Source of the DNA: Hyphomonadaceae bacterium
GTDB lineage: Bacteria; Pseudomonadota; Alphaproteobacteria; Caulobacterales; Hyphomonadaceae
Reading direction: 5' to 3'
NCBI GenBank assembly: GCA_947474455.1
Contig: CANJIL010000011.1
Coordinates: 1 to 64,000 of the forward strand
Length of the DNA: 64,000 nucleotides
In this document: positions 5,072 to 10,970 of the stretch, one piece after another
How the letters are laid out: every line of letters starts with the position of its first letter
Numbering within the stretch: position 1 is the first letter of the stretch
The notes under the pieces: model-generated
Told to the model about the DNA's origin: nothing
Seen by the model: only the letters and a program-made list of their open reading frames with translations
Database searches by the model: none
Program-made: the position numbers and the translations under genes

Positions 5072-6535
5072 TCAGCTCTTGCGCTTCGCTGCCAGCTTCT
5101 CGGCCAGCAGGAACGCCAGCTCCAGCGCCTGCTCGTTGTTCAGACGCGGATCGCAATGCGTGTGATAGCGGTCCTGCAGATCCATCGCCGTGATCTGATG
5201 CGCCCCGCCCGTGCACTCCGTCACATCCTGCCCGGTCATCTCCAGGTGAACGCCGCCAGCATAAGCGCCTTCGCTCTCCACCACGTCGATGAACGACTTT
5301 ACCTCGTTGAGGATGCGCTCGAACGGCCGCGTCTTGTAGCCCGAGTCCGTCTTCTCGACATTCCCGTGCATCGGATCGGACGACCACACAACCGTCCGGC
5401 CTTCCTTCTGCACCGCCCGCACCAGCTTCGGCAGGCCCGTCTCCACCTTGTCCGAACCAAACCGCGCTATCAGCGTCAGCCGGCCAGCAATGTTGCCAGG
5501 GTTCAACCTGTCGATCAGGCGGAGCATGTCGTCGGGCGCCAGTGACGGCCCGCACTTCATGCCGATTGGATTGCGAATGCCCGAGCAGAACTCGACATGC
5601 GCCCCATCCAGCTGCCGCGTGCGATCCCCGATCCACACCATATGCGCGCCCGTATCGTAGTATTCGCCAGGACGCGTGGAATCCTCCCGGGTCATCGCCT
5701 GTTCATAACCGAGCAGCAGCGCCTCATGGCTGGTATAGAATTCTGTCTGTGACAGCGCCGGCGTCGTCTCCGGCGTGATGCCGCAGGCCGCCATGAAGTC
5801 CATAGCGTCAGAGATGCGTGCAGCAAGGGCCCTGTATCGCTCCGCCGCGGGTGAACGCTCTACGAATCCGAGCATCCAACGATGCACGTTGGCGAGCGAG
5901 GCGTACCCTCCCTGCGCAAACGCGCGCAACAGGTTCAGCGTCGCCGCCGACTGCGCATAGGCCTGCACCAGCCGCTGCGGATCAGGCGTGCGCGCTTCGG
6001 CGGTGAACTCCATCCCGTTGATGTTGTCGCCGCGATAGGATGGCAGCGTCACGCCACCGATCTCTTCAATCGGCGAAGACCGCGGCTTGGCGAACTGCCC
6101 CGCGATCCGGCCGACCTTCACCACCGGCTTGCCGCCCGCGAACGTCATGGCCGCCGCCATCTGAAGGATTAGGCGGAACGTGTCGCGGATATTGTTCGGA
6201 TGGAATTCCTTGAAGCTCTCCGCGCAGTCTCCGCCTTGAAGCAGGAAGGCCTTGCCGTGCGCCACATCGGCCAGCCGAGCCATCAGTGTGCGCGCCTCGC
6301 CCGCGAACACCAGAGGCGGATAGCTGGAAAGCTGCTTCTCGACAGCCGTCAGCTTGCCCATGTCCGGATAATCGGCCGGAATATGCATGGCCGGTTTTGT
6401 CCGCCACGAACCGGGCGACCAGTTAGCATGCGCAGTCGATACGTTCGGCGTCACGCTTCCACCTGCTCCAAGCTGACCTGCGCGATCCAAGACATCGCCG
6501 AAGCCCGCGTCAATCCGGTCAGTGCTCATCATCAA
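5072..6535 (-). CDS. aroG: Class II 3-deoxy-7-phosphoheptulonate synthase
   Basis: This enzyme condenses phosphoenolpyruvate with erythrose 4-phosphate, the first step of the shikimate pathway to aromatic amino acids. The 487 residues match the plant-type class II family: N-terminal [19 protein letters not shown], the [14 protein letters not shown] motif with the metal-binding cysteine, [13 protein letters not shown], and the C-terminal [15 protein letters not shown] and [19 protein letters not shown]-like ending. It lies three bases downstream of asd, so both first-committed steps of amino acid pathways probably share a transcript and asd's leader control. Confidence 0.95.
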
Positions 6536-6538
6536 CTC

Positions 6539-7588
6539 TTATAAAAGCCGTTCAGCGATCTGCACCGCGTTCAGCGCGGCGCCCTTCAGCAACTGGTCAC
6601 CCGAAATGAACAGCGCCAGCGAGTGGCCCGTCGGGTCAGACACATCCTCTCGTATGCGGCCCACCAGCACATCATTCTGGCCGCTCGATTCGACCGGCAT
6701 CGGGAAATGGTTCGCCTCGCGATTATCTACGAGCTTCACTCCCGGCGCTTTCGCAAGGATCGCACGCGCCGCATCAACCGACACCTTGTCCGCGAATTCC
6801 GCGGTGATCGCCATCGAGTGCGCCCGCAGAACCGGCACGCGCACGCACGTCACGCCGACACGTAGGTCCGGCAGGCCCATGATCTTGCGCAGTTCCTTGA
6901 CGACCTTCTGCTCTTCGCCGTTGTAGCCATCATCCCCGATCGCGGTGTTATGGCTGAACAGGTTGAACGCATACGGGTGCGGCAGAACCTTGTGCTGATA
7001 GGTCTCGCCCTTGAGATAGGCGCGCGTCGCCTCTTCCAGCTCGTCCATCGCCGGCCGCCCCGCGCCAGACGCCGATTGGTAGGTCGACGCAATCACGCGC
7101 TTCAACTTGCCCGCCCGATGCAGCGGCCAGAGCGCCATCACCATGATGGCCGCTACGCAGTTCGGGTTGGCGTAAATTTTCTGCGACGGCTTGATCAGGT
7201 CGCCATTCACTTCCGGCACCACCAGCGGCACCGACGCATCCATCCGGAAAGCCGACGAGTTGTCGATCGCATACGCGCCCGCCGCCGCCGCGATCGGCAC
7301 ATACTGTTTCGAGATGTCCGTCTCCGAAGCAAACAGCGCCACGTCCACGCCCCTGAAGGCGTCATCCGTCAGCACCTGCATTTCCACTTCCTTGCCCCGG
7401 AATTTGAAACGCTTGCCCGCCGAGCGCTCGGAGGCAAACGCCTTCAGTGTCCCCGTCACCAGGCTCGACTCCTCGAGGCAACGCAGCATCTCAGCGCCAA
7501 CGGCGCCGGTCGCGCCAACCACGGCGACAGTCTTGCCGCCAACGCCGGCTTTGGCGTCACGCTCTGCTGCCTGGGCTGTCTGGCTCAC
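6539..7588 (-). CDS. asd: Aspartate-semialdehyde dehydrogenase
   Basis: It reduces aspartyl phosphate to aspartate semialdehyde with NADPH, the branch point to lysine, threonine, methionine and diaminopimelate. Over 349 residues one sees the N-terminal nucleotide-binding VAVVGATGAVGAEML, the catalytic-cysteine motif NPNCVAAIMV, STYQSASGAG and the VRVPVLRAHS substrate region. The start is GTG at 7588, preceded by AAGGAGA. That ribosome binding site is inside a perfect inverted repeat and the leader carries a terminator, so expression is probably attenuated. aroG follows after three bases. Confidence 0.96.
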   Translation of the reverse strand: MSQTAQAAERDAKAGVGGKTVAVVGATGAVGAEMLRCLEESSLVTGTLKAFASERSAGKRFKFRGKEVEMQVLTDDAFRGVDVALFASETDISKQYVPIAAAAGAYAIDNSSAFRMDASVPLVVPEVNGDLIKPSQKIYANPNCVAAIMVMALWPLHRAGKLKRVIASTYQSASGAGRPAMDELEEATRAYLKGETYQHKVLPHPYAFNLFSHNTAIGDDGYNGEEQKVVKELRKIMGLPDLRVGVTCVRVPVLRAHSMAITAEFADKVSVDAARAILAKAPGVKLVDNREANHFPMPVESSGQNDVLVGRIREDVSDPTGHSLALFISGDQLLKGAALNAVQIAERLL

Positions 7589-7593
7589 GGGTA

Positions 7594-7617
7594 GGTCTCC
7601 TTAGGAGCCGGGAGACC
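7594..7617 (-). promoter_or_regulatory. Hairpin sequestering the asd ribosome binding site
   Basis: On the minus strand GGTCTCC and GGAGACC form a perfect 7-bp inverted repeat around a 10-base loop. The 3' arm contains the GGAG Shine-Dalgarno of asd, eight bases before its GTG start. Folding would hide the site, so translation should depend on unfolding. Which signal does this is unknown. Confidence 0.6.
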
Positions 7618-7624
7618 GGGGCAA

Positions 7625-7656
7625 TAAAAAAAGCCCCGACCTTTTCCGGCGGGGCT
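7625..7656 (-). terminator. Intrinsic terminator in the asd leader
   Basis: On the minus strand AGCCCCG pairs with CGGGGCT around a short loop and is followed by seven or more T residues. It lies between the 26-codon ORF and asd, only about 37 bases before the asd start. It is either the end of the small gene's transcript or an attenuator for the asd-aroG operon. Confidence 0.85.
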
Positions 7657-7670
7657 CTGGCTTGCTTCGG

Positions 7671-7751
7671 CTACTTCGTCACAGCCAAGCGCGCCATTTG
7701 CCCCGCAAGGGCAATGGTCTTCCAATAGCGCTTGAAAAACGAACGTTGCAT
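7671..7751 (-). CDS. 26-codon leader peptide or small protein
   Basis: A 26-residue reading frame beginning MQRSFFKRYWK and ending MARLAVTK stops 14 bases before the terminator hairpin. A GAAGG sequence lies upstream of its ATG. The peptide is basic and amphipathic and has three lysines and two threonines, end products of the asd pathway, but no run of one amino acid as in classical leader peptides. It may be an attenuation peptide, a small functional protein, or chance. Its position directly before a terminator and asd is the main argument for it being real. Confidence 0.45.
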   Translation of the reverse strand: MQRSFFKRYWKTIALAGQMARLAVTK

Positions 7752-7942
7752 GGGCGGGCCTTCTACGCGGGTCGGGCAAAAAGGTCAATGTGCGCAAGGA
7801 AGGGCCTGATTTTGCCCCCCCTCGGCATAATCCCGCCCGGTCGCCCGGTCAGATGGCAAGGGCCCAGACCGCACGGCGCCAACTGTCACTTACCTTAGGG
7901 ATCTGATACCTCAGGAATCTGACCCTCGCGCCCAGCGCGCGC

Positions 7943-8311
7943 TCAATACTCGAAAAGCTTCGCATCCCGCTCCGCGCGCTTCCTGGCCGCCTCCAGAATG
8001 TGCATGGCAAGGGCCGTCTTGGTCCCCTTGCCCTTCAGCAAGTTCGCCGGATCAAGGTGATGCTTGTGCACGATGACGCGTAACTCCTTCACATCAAACT
8101 TGAGAAGACGCGCCTCGAACTCCGCCAGCGTACCATTCTTGAACTCGATGAAGGGATGAAACTCACCGACATTGCGCTCGGCCATGCGGCGCTCGGCAAG
8201 CTCCTGACCGAACTTGGCCAGCGCATCTTCGAGCTTCCGTCCGAACGCCGGATTGTTCACGGCTTCGTCGGTCACAACCTTGAACATGCTCGACAGCGTC
8301 TTGTCGATCAT
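7943..8311 (-). CDS. ParA-associated protein of unknown function
   Basis: The 122-residue, charged, mostly helical protein starts MIDKTLSSMFKVV and has no membrane segment. Its ATG overlaps the stop of the upstream ParA gene in an ATGA arrangement, implying translational coupling and probably a functional pair. It does not resemble ParB: no HTH or ParB-type GERRxRA motif is seen. It could be a cargo adaptor or an ATPase-stimulating partner, as in ParA-like systems that position protein complexes. The C-terminal half (GTKTALAMHILEAARKRAER) is rich in basic residues. Confidence 0.8.
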   Translation of the reverse strand: MIDKTLSSMFKVVTDEAVNNPAFGRKLEDALAKFGQELAERRMAERNVGEFHPFIEFKNGTLAEFEARLLKFDVKELRVIVHKHHLDPANLLKGKGTKTALAMHILEAARKRAERDAKLFEY

Positions 8312-9162
8312 ATCAGCCCCGCGCGTTCCCTGAATTCACCCGCGAACCTGCGCATCACGCTGGCCGCCTCGCCATACTTCTGTTCCAGCGTCCGCTTGTG
8401 GTCAGACCATTCGGCCGCCCGCGCGATTTGTTCGGCTTGCGGGATGCGCGTATCGAACACGTTGAACTGGTCCTTCAGCAGGGCCGCCTCGCTCTGGTGC
8501 AGCGAGTTGCTCTCCTCGAACTTGGTGATCAACGTATAAATCCGGTCGTCCGTGAAACGCCGCTGCTCCATCGAACGCAATGCACGCTTGCGGAACGCGA
8601 AGATGCCCAGACGCGAGACATAGTCGGGGATGGTCGGGATCACGATGAACTCCGATAGCTCGATCGCCGCTTCTGCAAACATCGAGATGCCTGGCGGGCA
8701 ATCGAACAGCACAAGGTCATAACTGTCCGCCACGTTCTCGATCGCCGAATGGGTCAGCCGCGAGAAACGCGTGTTGAGCTGCTTGATATCGAAGCCCTGG
8801 CTGACCCACTTCTCCAGCGCATGCCGCTCAATATACCGGAACTCCGGCGTCGATATCAGCAGATCCAGCGCGGGATCGCCGGCGATGTCGCTCACGTTGC
8901 CCGCGACGAACTCGCGAAAGAAACGCGGTGCGCCGCCGTAAACATACTGGTTGAAATACTCGTCGATCGTGCGGCCTGTCTTCCGCAGCTCGATCCAGCG
9001 GTCTTGCCCCGCCAGCATCATCGAGACGTTCGACTGCGGATCGAGATCGATCACCAGCACCCGCAGCCCCTCGGACGCCAGCGTCTCGGCGAGACTCGCA
9101 ACAGTGGTCGATTTGCCCACGCCGCCCTTCATGTTCACGACGGAAACGGTGCGCGGGGCCAC
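8308..9162 (-). CDS. Orphan ParA/MinD family ATPase
   Basis: The 284-residue cytoplasmic ATPase has the deviant Walker A NMKGGVGKSTT (residues 10-20), the Walker A' IDLDPQSNVS and the Walker B LVLFDCPPG typical of ParA proteins, which partition DNA or position protein clusters by ATP-driven surface gradients. The start is GTG at 9162, directly before the conserved beta strand. It is not next to a parB or replication gene, unlike the chromosomal parAB locus, and it is coupled to the gene at 7943. It is therefore an orphan ParA of unknown cargo. Confidence 0.92.
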   Translation of the reverse strand: MAPRTVSVVNMKGGVGKSTTVASLAETLASEGLRVLVIDLDPQSNVSMMLAGQDRWIELRKTGRTIDEYFNQYVYGGAPRFFREFVAGNVSDIAGDPALDLLISTPEFRYIERHALEKWVSQGFDIKQLNTRFSRLTHSAIENVADSYDLVLFDCPPGISMFAEAAIELSEFIVIPTIPDYVSRLGIFAFRKRALRSMEQRRFTDDRIYTLITKFEESNSLHQSEAALLKDQFNVFDTRIPQAEQIARAAEWSDHKRTLEQKYGEAASVMRRFAGEFRERAGLI

Positions 9163-9291
9163 CGGTTACTCCACTGGATGTTCGGTCAGGAAACGTGCCG
9201 CCAAGGCGTCGGTCGGTTCGGCGTGCAGGTCAAGGCATTCAGCATGCCGCCGCTGCGAATTACAATGGCGCAAGACGCCGCCTTGCCGGCG

Positions 9292-9594
9292 CTACTCCGG
9301 CTTCGGCGGCGTGGTCGGGAACGGATTCGTGCCGGGCATGATGTAGATAAGCCCCAGCTCGTCCTGGATCCGCTTCTCCTCGGCCTCACGCGCCAGCCGC
9401 TCGCGCCGCAACTTCCGCAGCTCCGTCTGCTCGGCCATGCTGGCTGCGATCTCGGGCTCCGCCCATTTATTCGGCATGAACCACACGCTCAGGCCGACGA
9501 TCAGACCGAGCACGATGATGACGTAGTTGAAATACTTCCAGCCAAAGTATTTAGGATTCCACTGGAGTTTCACGGCCCTGTCTCCTCGCATCAC
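9292..9594 (-). CDS. Single-pass membrane protein of unknown function
   Basis: The 100-residue product has one hydrophobic helix (YVIIVLGLIVGLSVWFM, near residues 24-40) followed by a long charged, probably helical segment rich in Glu and Arg and a proline-rich tail (PTTPPKPE). It overlaps the stop codon of the glutathione reductase gene by four bases, so it is cotranscribed with it. A GTG a few codons inside (VKLQWNPKY) is another possible start. I do not recognise the family. Confidence 0.7.
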   Translation of the reverse strand: MMRGDRAVKLQWNPKYFGWKYFNYVIIVLGLIVGLSVWFMPNKWAEPEIAASMAEQTELRKLRRERLAREAEEKRIQDELGLIYIMPGTNPFPTTPPKPE

Positions 9595-10970
9595 ACCGGC
9601 TGCAGTTCTGGCGGGATGAACTTCTCACGCATCGTCACAAGTTCCTCCGCAATCGACGGGTGAAGCGCGCAGGTCCGGTCGAAGTCAGCCTTCGATGCGC
9701 CCATCTTAACCGCAATCGCGACAGCCTGGATGATCTCTGGAGCATCCGGCCCGACGATGTGAACCCCGACGACTTTCTCGTCTTCGGCCCGCACCACTAT
9801 CTTCATTAGCACACGTTCCTCGTCCCCCGTGAGCATGTCTTTCATGGGACGGAACTTGGTTCGGTAAATATCGATGGCGCCATAGGTTTTGCGGGCTTCC
9901 GCCTCGGTAAGACCCACCACTCCCACCGGCGGCTGGCAAAAGACGGCATGCGGCACATCGGCATGGTCGAAGATGGTCGGCAGGTTCATGAACTGGGTCT
10001 GGGCGAAGGCCTGCCCCTCCCGGATCGCGACCGGCGTCAGGTTCAGCCGGTTGGTCACGTCTCCCACGGCAAAGATGTGCGCCACATTGGTTTGCGAATT
10101 CTCGTCGACGGTCACGCCGCCACGATCGTTGAGCTTCACGCCGACCTTGTCCAGCCCAAGCCCTTCGGTGTTCGGGTCGCGCCCGATGGCGAACAGCACC
10201 TTGTCGCCCGCCGCGGTCTCGCCGTTCGAGAGACGGACAACAAACTTCTCGCCCTCCTTCTCGATGCGCACGGGCGAAGCATTGGCGATTACCTTCACGC
10301 CCTTGCGCTTCAGTTCCTCATGAACGTGGCTGCGCACGTCTTCGTCAAAACCGCGCAGCACGGTCTCCTTGCGGATCACCAGGCACACTTTGACACCCAG
10401 CCCGCTCAGGATGCCCGCGAACTCCACCGCGATATAGCCGCCGCCGACAATCACAATGTGATTGGGCAGCTGCTTGAGATGGAACATGTCGTTGGACGTT
10501 ATGGCGAGTTCGATGCCTTCGACATCGGGCGGCAACGACGTGCGCCCGCCCGTGGCGATCAGGATTTTGCCCGCCGTCACCGTCCGGTTGGCCTTGATCA
10601 GACGAAGCGTATGCGGATCGACGAACTCCGCGCGGTCGTCGACCAGCTCCGCCCCCGCGTTGCGGAGATTGCGCGCATAGATGCCGGACAGCCGATCGAT
10701 CTCGCGATGCATCCGGTCCAAGAACAGGTTGTGGTCGTAGGATACGCCCTCAACCTTCCAGCCATAGCCCTTCATGTGCTCAAATGAACGGCCGAACTCG
10801 CTGGCGTAGACCATGTACTTTTTCGGGATACAGCCGCGTATCACGCAGGTCCCGCCCGCGCGGTCTTCCTCAGCCACCAACACCTTGGCGCCTGACATGG
10901 CCGCGAGTCGCGAGGCGCGAACGCCGCCTGAACCGGCGCCAATCACGAACAGGTCGTAGTCATAGGCCAT
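9591..10970 (-). CDS. gor: Glutathione-disulfide reductase
   Basis: A flavoenzyme that uses NADPH to regenerate reduced glutathione in the cytoplasm. Its 459 residues show the FAD-binding FVIGAGSGGVRASRLAA, the redox-active cysteine pair in GGTCVIRGCIPKK, the NADPH-binding IVGGGYIAVEFAGILSGLG, the second FAD motif IFAVGDVTNRLNLTPVA and the C-terminal catalytic histidine region CALHPSIAEE. This pattern separates it from dihydrolipoamide dehydrogenase and mercuric reductase. It is followed by an overlapping small membrane-protein gene. Confidence 0.95.
   Translation of the reverse strand: MAYDYDLFVIGAGSGGVRASRLAAMSGAKVLVAEEDRAGGTCVIRGCIPKKYMVYASEFGRSFEHMKGYGWKVEGVSYDHNLFLDRMHREIDRLSGIYARNLRNAGAELVDDRAEFVDPHTLRLIKANRTVTAGKILIATGGRTSLPPDVEGIELAITSNDMFHLKQLPNHIVIVGGGYIAVEFAGILSGLGVKVCLVIRKETVLRGFDEDVRSHVHEELKRKGVKVIANASPVRIEKEGEKFVVRLSNGETAAGDKVLFAIGRDPNTEGLGLDKVGVKLNDRGGVTVDENSQTNVAHIFAVGDVTNRLNLTPVAIREGQAFAQTQFMNLPTIFDHADVPHAVFCQPPVGVVGLTEAEARKTYGAIDIYRTKFRPMKDMLTGDEERVLMKIVVRAEDEKVVGVHIVGPDAPEIIQAVAIAVKMGASKADFDRTCALHPSIAEELVTMREKFIPPELQPV

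Follow-up and report, generated by a model that had tools for sequence, protein, structure and literature searches.

A putative aromatic amino acid attenuator in front of asd-aroG in Hyphomonadaceae, apparently retuned from a threonine attenuator

The leader that precedes the genes asd and aroG in a Hyphomonadaceae bacterium is best explained as a ribosome-mediated attenuator that senses aromatic aminoacyl-tRNAs and was retuned from an attenuator for threonine. On the basis of sequence comparison and modelled folds we give this reading a probability of about 0.7. The leader is conserved, two of its helices (B:C and D:E) covary and a third (A:B) does so in part, aromatic codons go together with aroG, and one change on the asd tree accounts for them. 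We analyzed a stretch of 64,000 nucleotides (contig CANJIL010000011.1, called the window here), in which leader, asd and aroG lie entirely on the minus strand (Table 1). Two copies of asd were found in this genome, the second one at G000:C21, and the aroG of the window was the sole copy found. The closest named matches of the window asd were from Hyphomonadaceae MAGs. We compared 15 loci with asd and an adjoining aroG (G000-G006, G008-G011, G013, G014, G020 and G023), and in 14 of them the leader is complete, that of G005 being cut by the contig end. Upstream of the leader there is an ORF of 122 aa (7943-8311, minus strand) with no Pfam or NCBIfam match, and the gene adjoining it is ParA-like as judged by eye.

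Table 1. Features of the leader and of the genes downstream in the window
Feature	Position	Strand	Evidence
-35 element, TTGACC	7783-7788	-	TTGAC(C/G) in 14/14 complete asd-aroG leaders
-10 element, TAGAAG, 17-nt spacer, ends 8 nt before ATG	7760-7765	-	counterpart in 11/14
Leader ORF, 26 codons, MQRSFFKRYWKTIALAGQMARLAVTK and stop	7751 to 7671	-	translation; homologues in 14/14 complete asd-aroG leaders
Putative control codons, F5 F6 (K7 R8) Y9 W10	7722-7739	-	aromatic-codon count across leaders
P1, hairpin UUGCCCU/GGGGCAA inside the ORF	7698-7714	-	fold and ribosome-edge scan, window
Segment A, GCGGGGC, codons 16-18, predicted 5' antiterminator strand	7700-7706	-	A:B covariation, window stall fold
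B:C, predicted terminator hairpin	7631-7657	-	10 pairs, 97.6% of cells paired, 49 sequences
Segment B, GCCCCGC, can pair with A (antiterminator) or C (terminator)	7649-7655	-	covariation, stall fold
7-T run, overlaps the end of the B:C hairpin	7632-7626	-	sequence
D, anti-Shine-Dalgarno strand, GGUCUCC	7617-7611	-	D:E helix conservation
E, GGAGACC, holds most of the asd Shine-Dalgarno	7600-7594	-	sequence, D:E covariation
asd, aspartate-semialdehyde dehydrogenase, GTG start	7588 to 6539	-	NCBIfam asd_B, 376 bits
aroG, class II DAHP synthase	6535 to 5072	-	NCBIfam DAHP_synth_II, 708 bits

Architecture of the leader

The -35 hexamer was found 36-38 nt upstream of the leader ATG in all the complete asd-aroG leaders. 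The -10 element that follows after 17 nt reads TAGAAG, TAGAAA or TAAAAG in the 11 leaders that have it, ends 8-9 nt before the ATG and is weaker in L012, L014 and L015. Both hexamers are far less variable than the sequence between and around them, which suggests that selection acts on them. Since the -10 element of the window ends so close to the ATG and no Shine-Dalgarno (SD) was seen before the ATG in the asd-aroG leaders inspected, translation of the ORF probably takes place on a leaderless message, as has been reported for trpL of S. meliloti (PMC7298713). The ORF has 26-28 codons across the 14 leaders and appears to be conserved as coding sequence, its residues 4-13 being constant in six close relatives, with synonymous variation at two of these codons (that of Y9, for instance, is TAT or TAC with the residue kept).

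The leader stop is followed by 14 bases (7670-7657) and then by the B:C stem, which runs from 7656, or from 7657 if a G-U pair is added there, to 7632/7631. Further downstream D and E form a perfect 7-bp repeat, GGTCTCC/GGAGACC, around a 10-nt loop. The SD of asd, AAGGAG (7602-7597), is located 8 nt before the GTG start. These coordinates bear out what a preliminary description of the window had reported, a 26-codon ORF with an intrinsic terminator 14 bases later and a 7-bp inverted repeat that takes in the asd SD. The same description had asked for conservation of the peptide and for covariation in both hairpins among relatives, and the two were found: the ORF and both hairpins are kept in 14 of the 14 complete leaders, and both hairpins covary over 49 alphaproteobacterial leaders, above all of 500 shuffles.

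The alignment behind these numbers came from a covariance model built from 16 leaders and took 49 of 56 sources (omitting L016, L046, L048, L058, L126, L131 and L141, of which L046, L048 and L058 gave no match to the model). In this alignment, which was fitted to the B:C and SD helices and so favours them, the two hairpins together had 47 cells with double changes, compared to 9.3 in the shuffles and at most 16 when the strands were slid, and they exceeded every shuffle on all five measures. Specifically, six pairs of B:C had changes on both sides. The D:E helix was paired in 95.1% of the cells and all six of its pairs had changed on both sides; in Yoonia and Loktanella, for example, GUCUCC/GGAGAC is replaced by the compensated GUCUUC/GAAGAC.

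The candidate antiterminator A:B was absent from the covariance model. It exceeded the shuffles on three of the five measures: cells paired (72.0% against 68.2%, at most 50.3% when slid), cells with double changes (46 against 30, at most 23 when slid) and covariation score (0.160 against 0.118, also above the slid versions), with 0 of 500 shuffles as high in each case. The pairs with double changes (7; 366 of 500 shuffles as high) and the pair types (24; 157 of 500) showed no excess. In a test leader by leader A:B counted in 30 of 46, a rough number, as at least eight leaders (L003-L010) had segment B placed wrongly. As A:B and B:C share segment B, antiterminator and terminator are predicted to be mutually exclusive.

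A generic scan of positions 6500-10500 misses the B:C hairpin, probably because of its bulge, and lists two other hairpins where 2.8 are expected. It is uninformative, since both the B:C hairpin and the conserved leader promoter escape it, and the case for more than chance therefore rests on the comparison among genomes.

Proposed mechanism, modelled folds and output

The mechanism that we propose would work as follows. The transcript would start at or beside the leader ATG. When tRNA for Trp, and probably for Tyr and Phe, is charged, the ribosome would cross codons 5-10, P1 or the ribosome itself would then block segment A, B would pair with C, and the T-run would stop transcription in the window. 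When aromatic tRNA is short the ribosome would stall within codons 5-10, P1 could not form, A would pair with B, the terminator would fail and aroG, the enzyme of entry to the aromatic pathway, would be made. The second hairpin would hide the SD of asd, probably lowering translation or tying it to the state of the leader.

Part of this scheme could be reproduced in modelled folds. In the fold of the window RNA segment A is concealed by P1 in the absence of a ribosome. With a transcript that ends after the hairpin, B:C had a probability of 0.99 without ribosome or with the ribosome at the stop codon. When the front of the ribosome was set at nt 41, B:C fell to 0.17 and A:B rose to 0.73. Shuffling the spacer under the same stall brought B:C below 0.5 in only 5 of 300 cases for the window and 9 of 300 for L004. 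A scan by trimming indicated that the window switch needs the front at nt 41-45. At the usual toeprint distance this corresponds to an A site on codon 10-11, Trp10 or Lys11. The range is wider in L003, L004, L007 and L010, covering F5 to W10 (W11 in L010).

Other results of the modelling go against the switch or limit it. Of the two scans only that by trimming showed the window switch, which depends on 1-3 nt and on omitting the upstream RNA. In a codon scan with the ribosome edge set 12 nt past the A site, no codon of the window opened B:C (0.96-0.99), and in the full-length RNA (folds that covered 20 sequences) the stalled window still favoured B:C, at 0.75. Switching at equilibrium was seen in 8 of 13 leaders of asd-aroG and in 7 of 21 of the Thr type; in the rest B:C wins despite the stall. 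A ribosome-mediated attenuator is well supported in kind, its exact energetics being less settled. The preliminary description had proposed attenuation through translation of the small ORF, and to this conservation and covariation lend support, the modelled switch doing so in part.

The form that the output takes may differ among relatives. The window is the only one of the 14 complete asd-aroG leaders with a T-run, the longest elsewhere being of 2 T. Termination is doubtful in the other 13, as this run is missing there, and their output may be translational. As the nested place of the window on the tree suggests, the clade may have lost the run and the window may have regained it.

The likeliest of the alternatives concerns the output: this would be mainly translational, with the state of the leader deciding whether GUCUCC takes the SD or C as its partner, and in most of the clade the first hairpin would be no terminator. 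We consider it doubtful as the main account, and it is compatible with an attenuator. It would fit an SD hairpin that is conserved and covaries and the absence of a T-run from 13 of 14 asd-aroG leaders, and it agrees with C:D being pairable in 85.4% of the cells and with the SD opening above 0.3 under stall in 4 of the 13 asd-aroG leaders folded. In the other nine, the window included, the SD stays closed under stall, and the window does have its 7-T run. The C:D helix, which we considered as an anti-sequestor, found no support: its pairing is no better than that of shuffles (140 of 500 as high), without covariation beyond them, and it beats a shuffled D (p<=0.05) in only 12 of 46 leaders, a count that is rough for the same mislocation of B in at least eight of them (L003-L010). 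The earlier proposal, which combined transcriptional with translational control, is plausible, with half of it shown: the SD hairpin is conserved and covaries, while its coupling through C:D lacks covariation.

Probable control codons and their origin

The N-terminal codons of the leader follow the genes downstream. The aromatic clusters within the asd-aroG clade read SFFKRYWK, MFSKRYFWK, SFGKRYWT, TFSKFTWK, MFVKCFYW and LTKRYWICF. Over residues 2-14, all 12 asd-aroG leaders counted had three or more aromatic residues including Trp. Among the asd-alone leaders 0 of 27 had three aromatics and 0 of 27 had Trp, and none of the thrS leaders had three (0 of 7 distinct peptides, out of 8), two of them having one Trp. 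Another 18 asd leaders, which include repeats of the 27, likewise held none with three aromatics. The mean number of aromatics was 3.8 in asd-aroG and 0.4 in asd-alone leaders; the mean number of Thr among the 13 codons was 2.0, compared to 4.7 in asd-alone and 5.0 in thrS leaders, and 24 of the 27 asd-alone leaders had at least three Thr. The count took 12 of the 14 complete asd-aroG leaders, omitting L006 (its peptide is that of L004) and L005, which has the same aromatic codons. Fisher's test gave 2.6e-10 for the aromatic codons, a value to be read with the asd-aroG rows as one clade and so as one event, not twelve. An aroG is present in all 15 loci of the clade and in 0 of 27 asd-alone loci, in seven of which the sequence reaches only about 0.4 kb past asd. 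The asd protein was the criterion of choice for the asd-aroG loci and for 20 of the 27 asd-alone loci, and the RNA model for the other seven; no locus was chosen by its N-terminal codons.

The control codons thus appear to match the product of the operon, aromatic with aroG and Thr without it, within a single clade. The preliminary description had seen no classic run of one amino acid and hence no evident class of leader peptide, which is not supported given the conserved mixed cluster of F, Y and W that matches aroG. Since this cluster is the probable control region, Lys, Thr and Met, which the description had named as additions to try, are not the first candidate ligands, though Thr is the ancestral signal. 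Counting against an aromatic attenuator, the window leader has only two Phe, one Tyr and one Trp codon.

It might be argued that the leader still senses Thr (and Ile), the aromatic codons being incidental or a second signal. We regard this as unlikely, although several observations speak for it. Thr12 and Ile13 persist across most of the clade and Thr14 in many relatives, the tail of the peptide resembles the KTTALAG of Thr leaders, Thr-type leaders precede the asd-alone genes that surround the clade on the tree, and asd makes a precursor of Thr. Besides, the modelled stall range covers Thr12 in L003, L004 and L007 (Thr13 in L010), and a stall at Thr12 keeps B:C low in the first three (0.06-0.23). 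Against it stand the drop in Thr and the rise in aromatics given above, as well as the extra Phe codon that L010 carries between Tyr and Trp. Thr14 of L004 and L007 falls beyond the positions at which a stall preserves A:B (0.99-1.00), and residue 14 of the window is Ala. In the window a front set by Thr12 fails to open B:C (0.89-0.99 at fronts nt 46-48), so that Thr12 could not signal there.

The origin of the aromatic signal was examined on quick trees of asd, with SH-aLRT as the measure of support. All asd-aroG genes formed one clade (SH-aLRT 100) within the asd genes with Thr leaders, among those of Rhodobacterales, Phenylobacterium, Niveispirillum and others. With leader types placed on this tree, a single change from Thr to aromatic suffices. 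The tree was built without L023, L065, L070, L072, L126 and L135 (long branches, a duplicate and a doubtful frame) and with L183, L184, L209, L215 and L224 added; an earlier tree with those six loci recovered the same clade with a support of 97. Both forms of the leader occur in one genome of the genus of the window (G013): an aromatic leader, MQGSFFKRYWKTITPAGLMARLAMTN, precedes its asd-aroG (L007), and its second asd (L209) has the leader MSTIKTTTTTKTTASAGRSLVRAG and no aroG within the 4.3 kb fetched.

We also considered that the leader was inherited from aroG, and rejected it. Fifteen loci of the same family where aroG stands alone were inspected by eye and with R2, one of the covariance models described below, and 0 of 15 showed such a leader; the second aroG of G008, also of the genus of the window (L169, G008:C23:75200-76300), likewise had no leader-model match within the region fetched. 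The absence at stand-alone aroG indicates that the leader came with asd and that its codons changed. The scaffold appears to have been inherited from the Thr attenuator of asd, with the codons changing when aroG came under it.

Known attenuators and a wider family of leaders

Two further explanations have little left in their favor. The hairpins could terminate a distinct gene, for a small RNA or a peptide, with asd transcribed from a promoter of its own, which we judge very improbable. Terminated attenuator RNAs can act in trans, as described for rnTrpL of S. meliloti (PMC7298713, seen in part), and our promoter scan is too insensitive to exclude a start near asd: it lists none between terminator and asd but also misses the conserved TTGAC/TAGAAG pair upstream of the leader. 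Nevertheless, asd is preceded by leader ORF, hairpin and SD helix as a unit in each of the 14 complete leaders, and the leader codons track the genes downstream. A riboswitch binding a metabolite, with a conserved structured leader and a sequestered SD to recommend it, was rejected as scarcely credible: neither the window nor seven of the loci matched an Rfam leader family at the gathering score, conservation lies in the hairpins and codons, and the ORF codons follow the downstream gene; the RNA ligand of the preliminary description is not needed. In the window the only Rfam matches at the gathering score were three tRNAs, and the seven loci gave four hits at E<=1, all of them below that score, among them rnk_pseudo over the L053 leader (27 bits, gathering 55, E 0.91).

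In E. coli, thrL has Thr/Ile control codons. The asd leader of Alphaproteobacteria would function in the manner of thrL but sits before asd or thrS, and the window leader differs from both thrL and pheL in gene set and structure. With the attenuators of trp, phe, thr, his and ilv it shares a short ORF whose control codons match the pathway, an antiterminator and a terminator that exclude each other, and a stop codon near the antiterminator. The clade of the window differs from these classic systems in its mixed aromatic codons, in an additional conserved helix that sequesters the SD, in an ORF that is probably leaderless and in the lack of a T-run in 13 of 14 leaders.

We regard the leader as a variation on ribosome-mediated attenuation; aromatic leader control of DAHP synthase is already known in C. 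glutamicum. There a Phe-Tyr-Phe leader, aroR, precedes the DAHP synthase gene aroF (PMC11802643, PMC4046766) and responds to Phe limitation (PMC11802643); pheL of E. coli has Phe control codons (PMC11802643). The portions of these sources that we could consult describe an actinobacterial leader without asd and mention no Trp codon. The likeness between aroR and our leader, both aromatic peptides before a DAHP synthase gene, is one of description, and the window leader appears to derive from a Thr leader. In S. meliloti, the part of the report available describes a trpL peptide of 14 aa with consecutive Trp codons before trpE(G), and an rnTrpL that starts at the trpL ATG (PMC7298713). This is again an alphaproteobacterial attenuator with the RNA start at the leader ATG, as is probable in the window, and again the likeness is one of description, from which we draw no relation of scaffold. 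In literature that was mostly outside subscription journals, neither this leader nor aromatic codons before asd-aroG were found described, nor were alphaproteobacterial Thr or His leaders of asd, thrS or hisS, and an earlier prediction is possible.

Two covariance models of both hairpins, R1 and R2, were used to search other genomes in samples of the class (the window is in both models, which makes its own match circular). R1 matched 34 of 384 genomes (E<=0.05) and R2 44 of 384 (E<=0.01). Not all of these matches are genuine leaders, and some are weak and may be plain terminators. Of 47 annotated matches (which came from 47 among 59 loci screened, several being places of loci found earlier), phmmer put 18 before asd, 7 before thrS and 6 before dapA; 2 more preceded hisS and 14 preceded other or unrecognised genes, one of these 14, L172, being the place of L135 with asd in another frame. 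The models also gave matches before GNAT and unknown genes.

A similar arrangement with Thr codons was found before asd and thrS. Thr-rich leaders precede thrS at L125 (L125:1640-2824) and also at L120-L122, L133, L143 and L170. The protein of L125 matches the thrS profile only at positions 170-564, indicating that its N-terminal part is missing; in thrS this part is the site of the editing domain. The two hisS leaders, MTRRSHHHGHHHPTLAGSGGMRVV and MSGFSHHHGHHHHPTPAGSAWERLA, are rich in His and have similar hairpins (L212:1510-1639 and L213:1456-1586); they come from two Caulobacterales genomes of one genus (G628 and G552), with hisS at 380 and 378 bits. At L189:1501-1642 the peptide MTTTTPSAGTG and a terminator precede a gene like aspartate kinase / homoserine dehydrogenase. 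The dapA leaders gave no clear codon signal, five of them having 1-3 Lys in residues 2-16, and the Lys-rich peptide of L217 (dapA) was withdrawn, as its frame has no stop there. Leaders like MFTRKTCQQTQRTLRITARALVCGWPRT (L161:1501-1636, also L162, L163 and L165), with a terminator and an SD hairpin, occur in a different genus of the family to which the window belongs; their control codons may be Gln/Thr, and the protein downstream, of 142 aa in L161, has no Pfam or NCBIfam match. The model matches L127, L128 and L136 lie before DUF1127 (checked with Pfam for L128 and L136), with peptides without obvious signal.

The leaders of asd, thrS and hisS could share descent or be the product of convergence of GC-rich hairpins. 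Tentatively, and with somewhat less than even confidence, we suggest that one scaffold of leaderless ORF, B:C and SD hairpin was retargeted repeatedly by codon changes only, to Thr (asd, thrS), His (hisS) and Phe/Tyr/Trp (asd-aroG), its output shifting between transcriptional and translational with gain or loss of the T-run.

These data point to a family of attenuators in Alphaproteobacteria outside Rfam. If the aromatic reading of the window leader is true, it would provide control of the entry enzyme of the aromatic pathway in a genome where one such gene was found. It would also be a traceable case of an attenuator switching the amino acid that it senses, with ancestral and derived forms in one genome, and it would become directly testable how the specificity of regulation evolves when codons are replaced.
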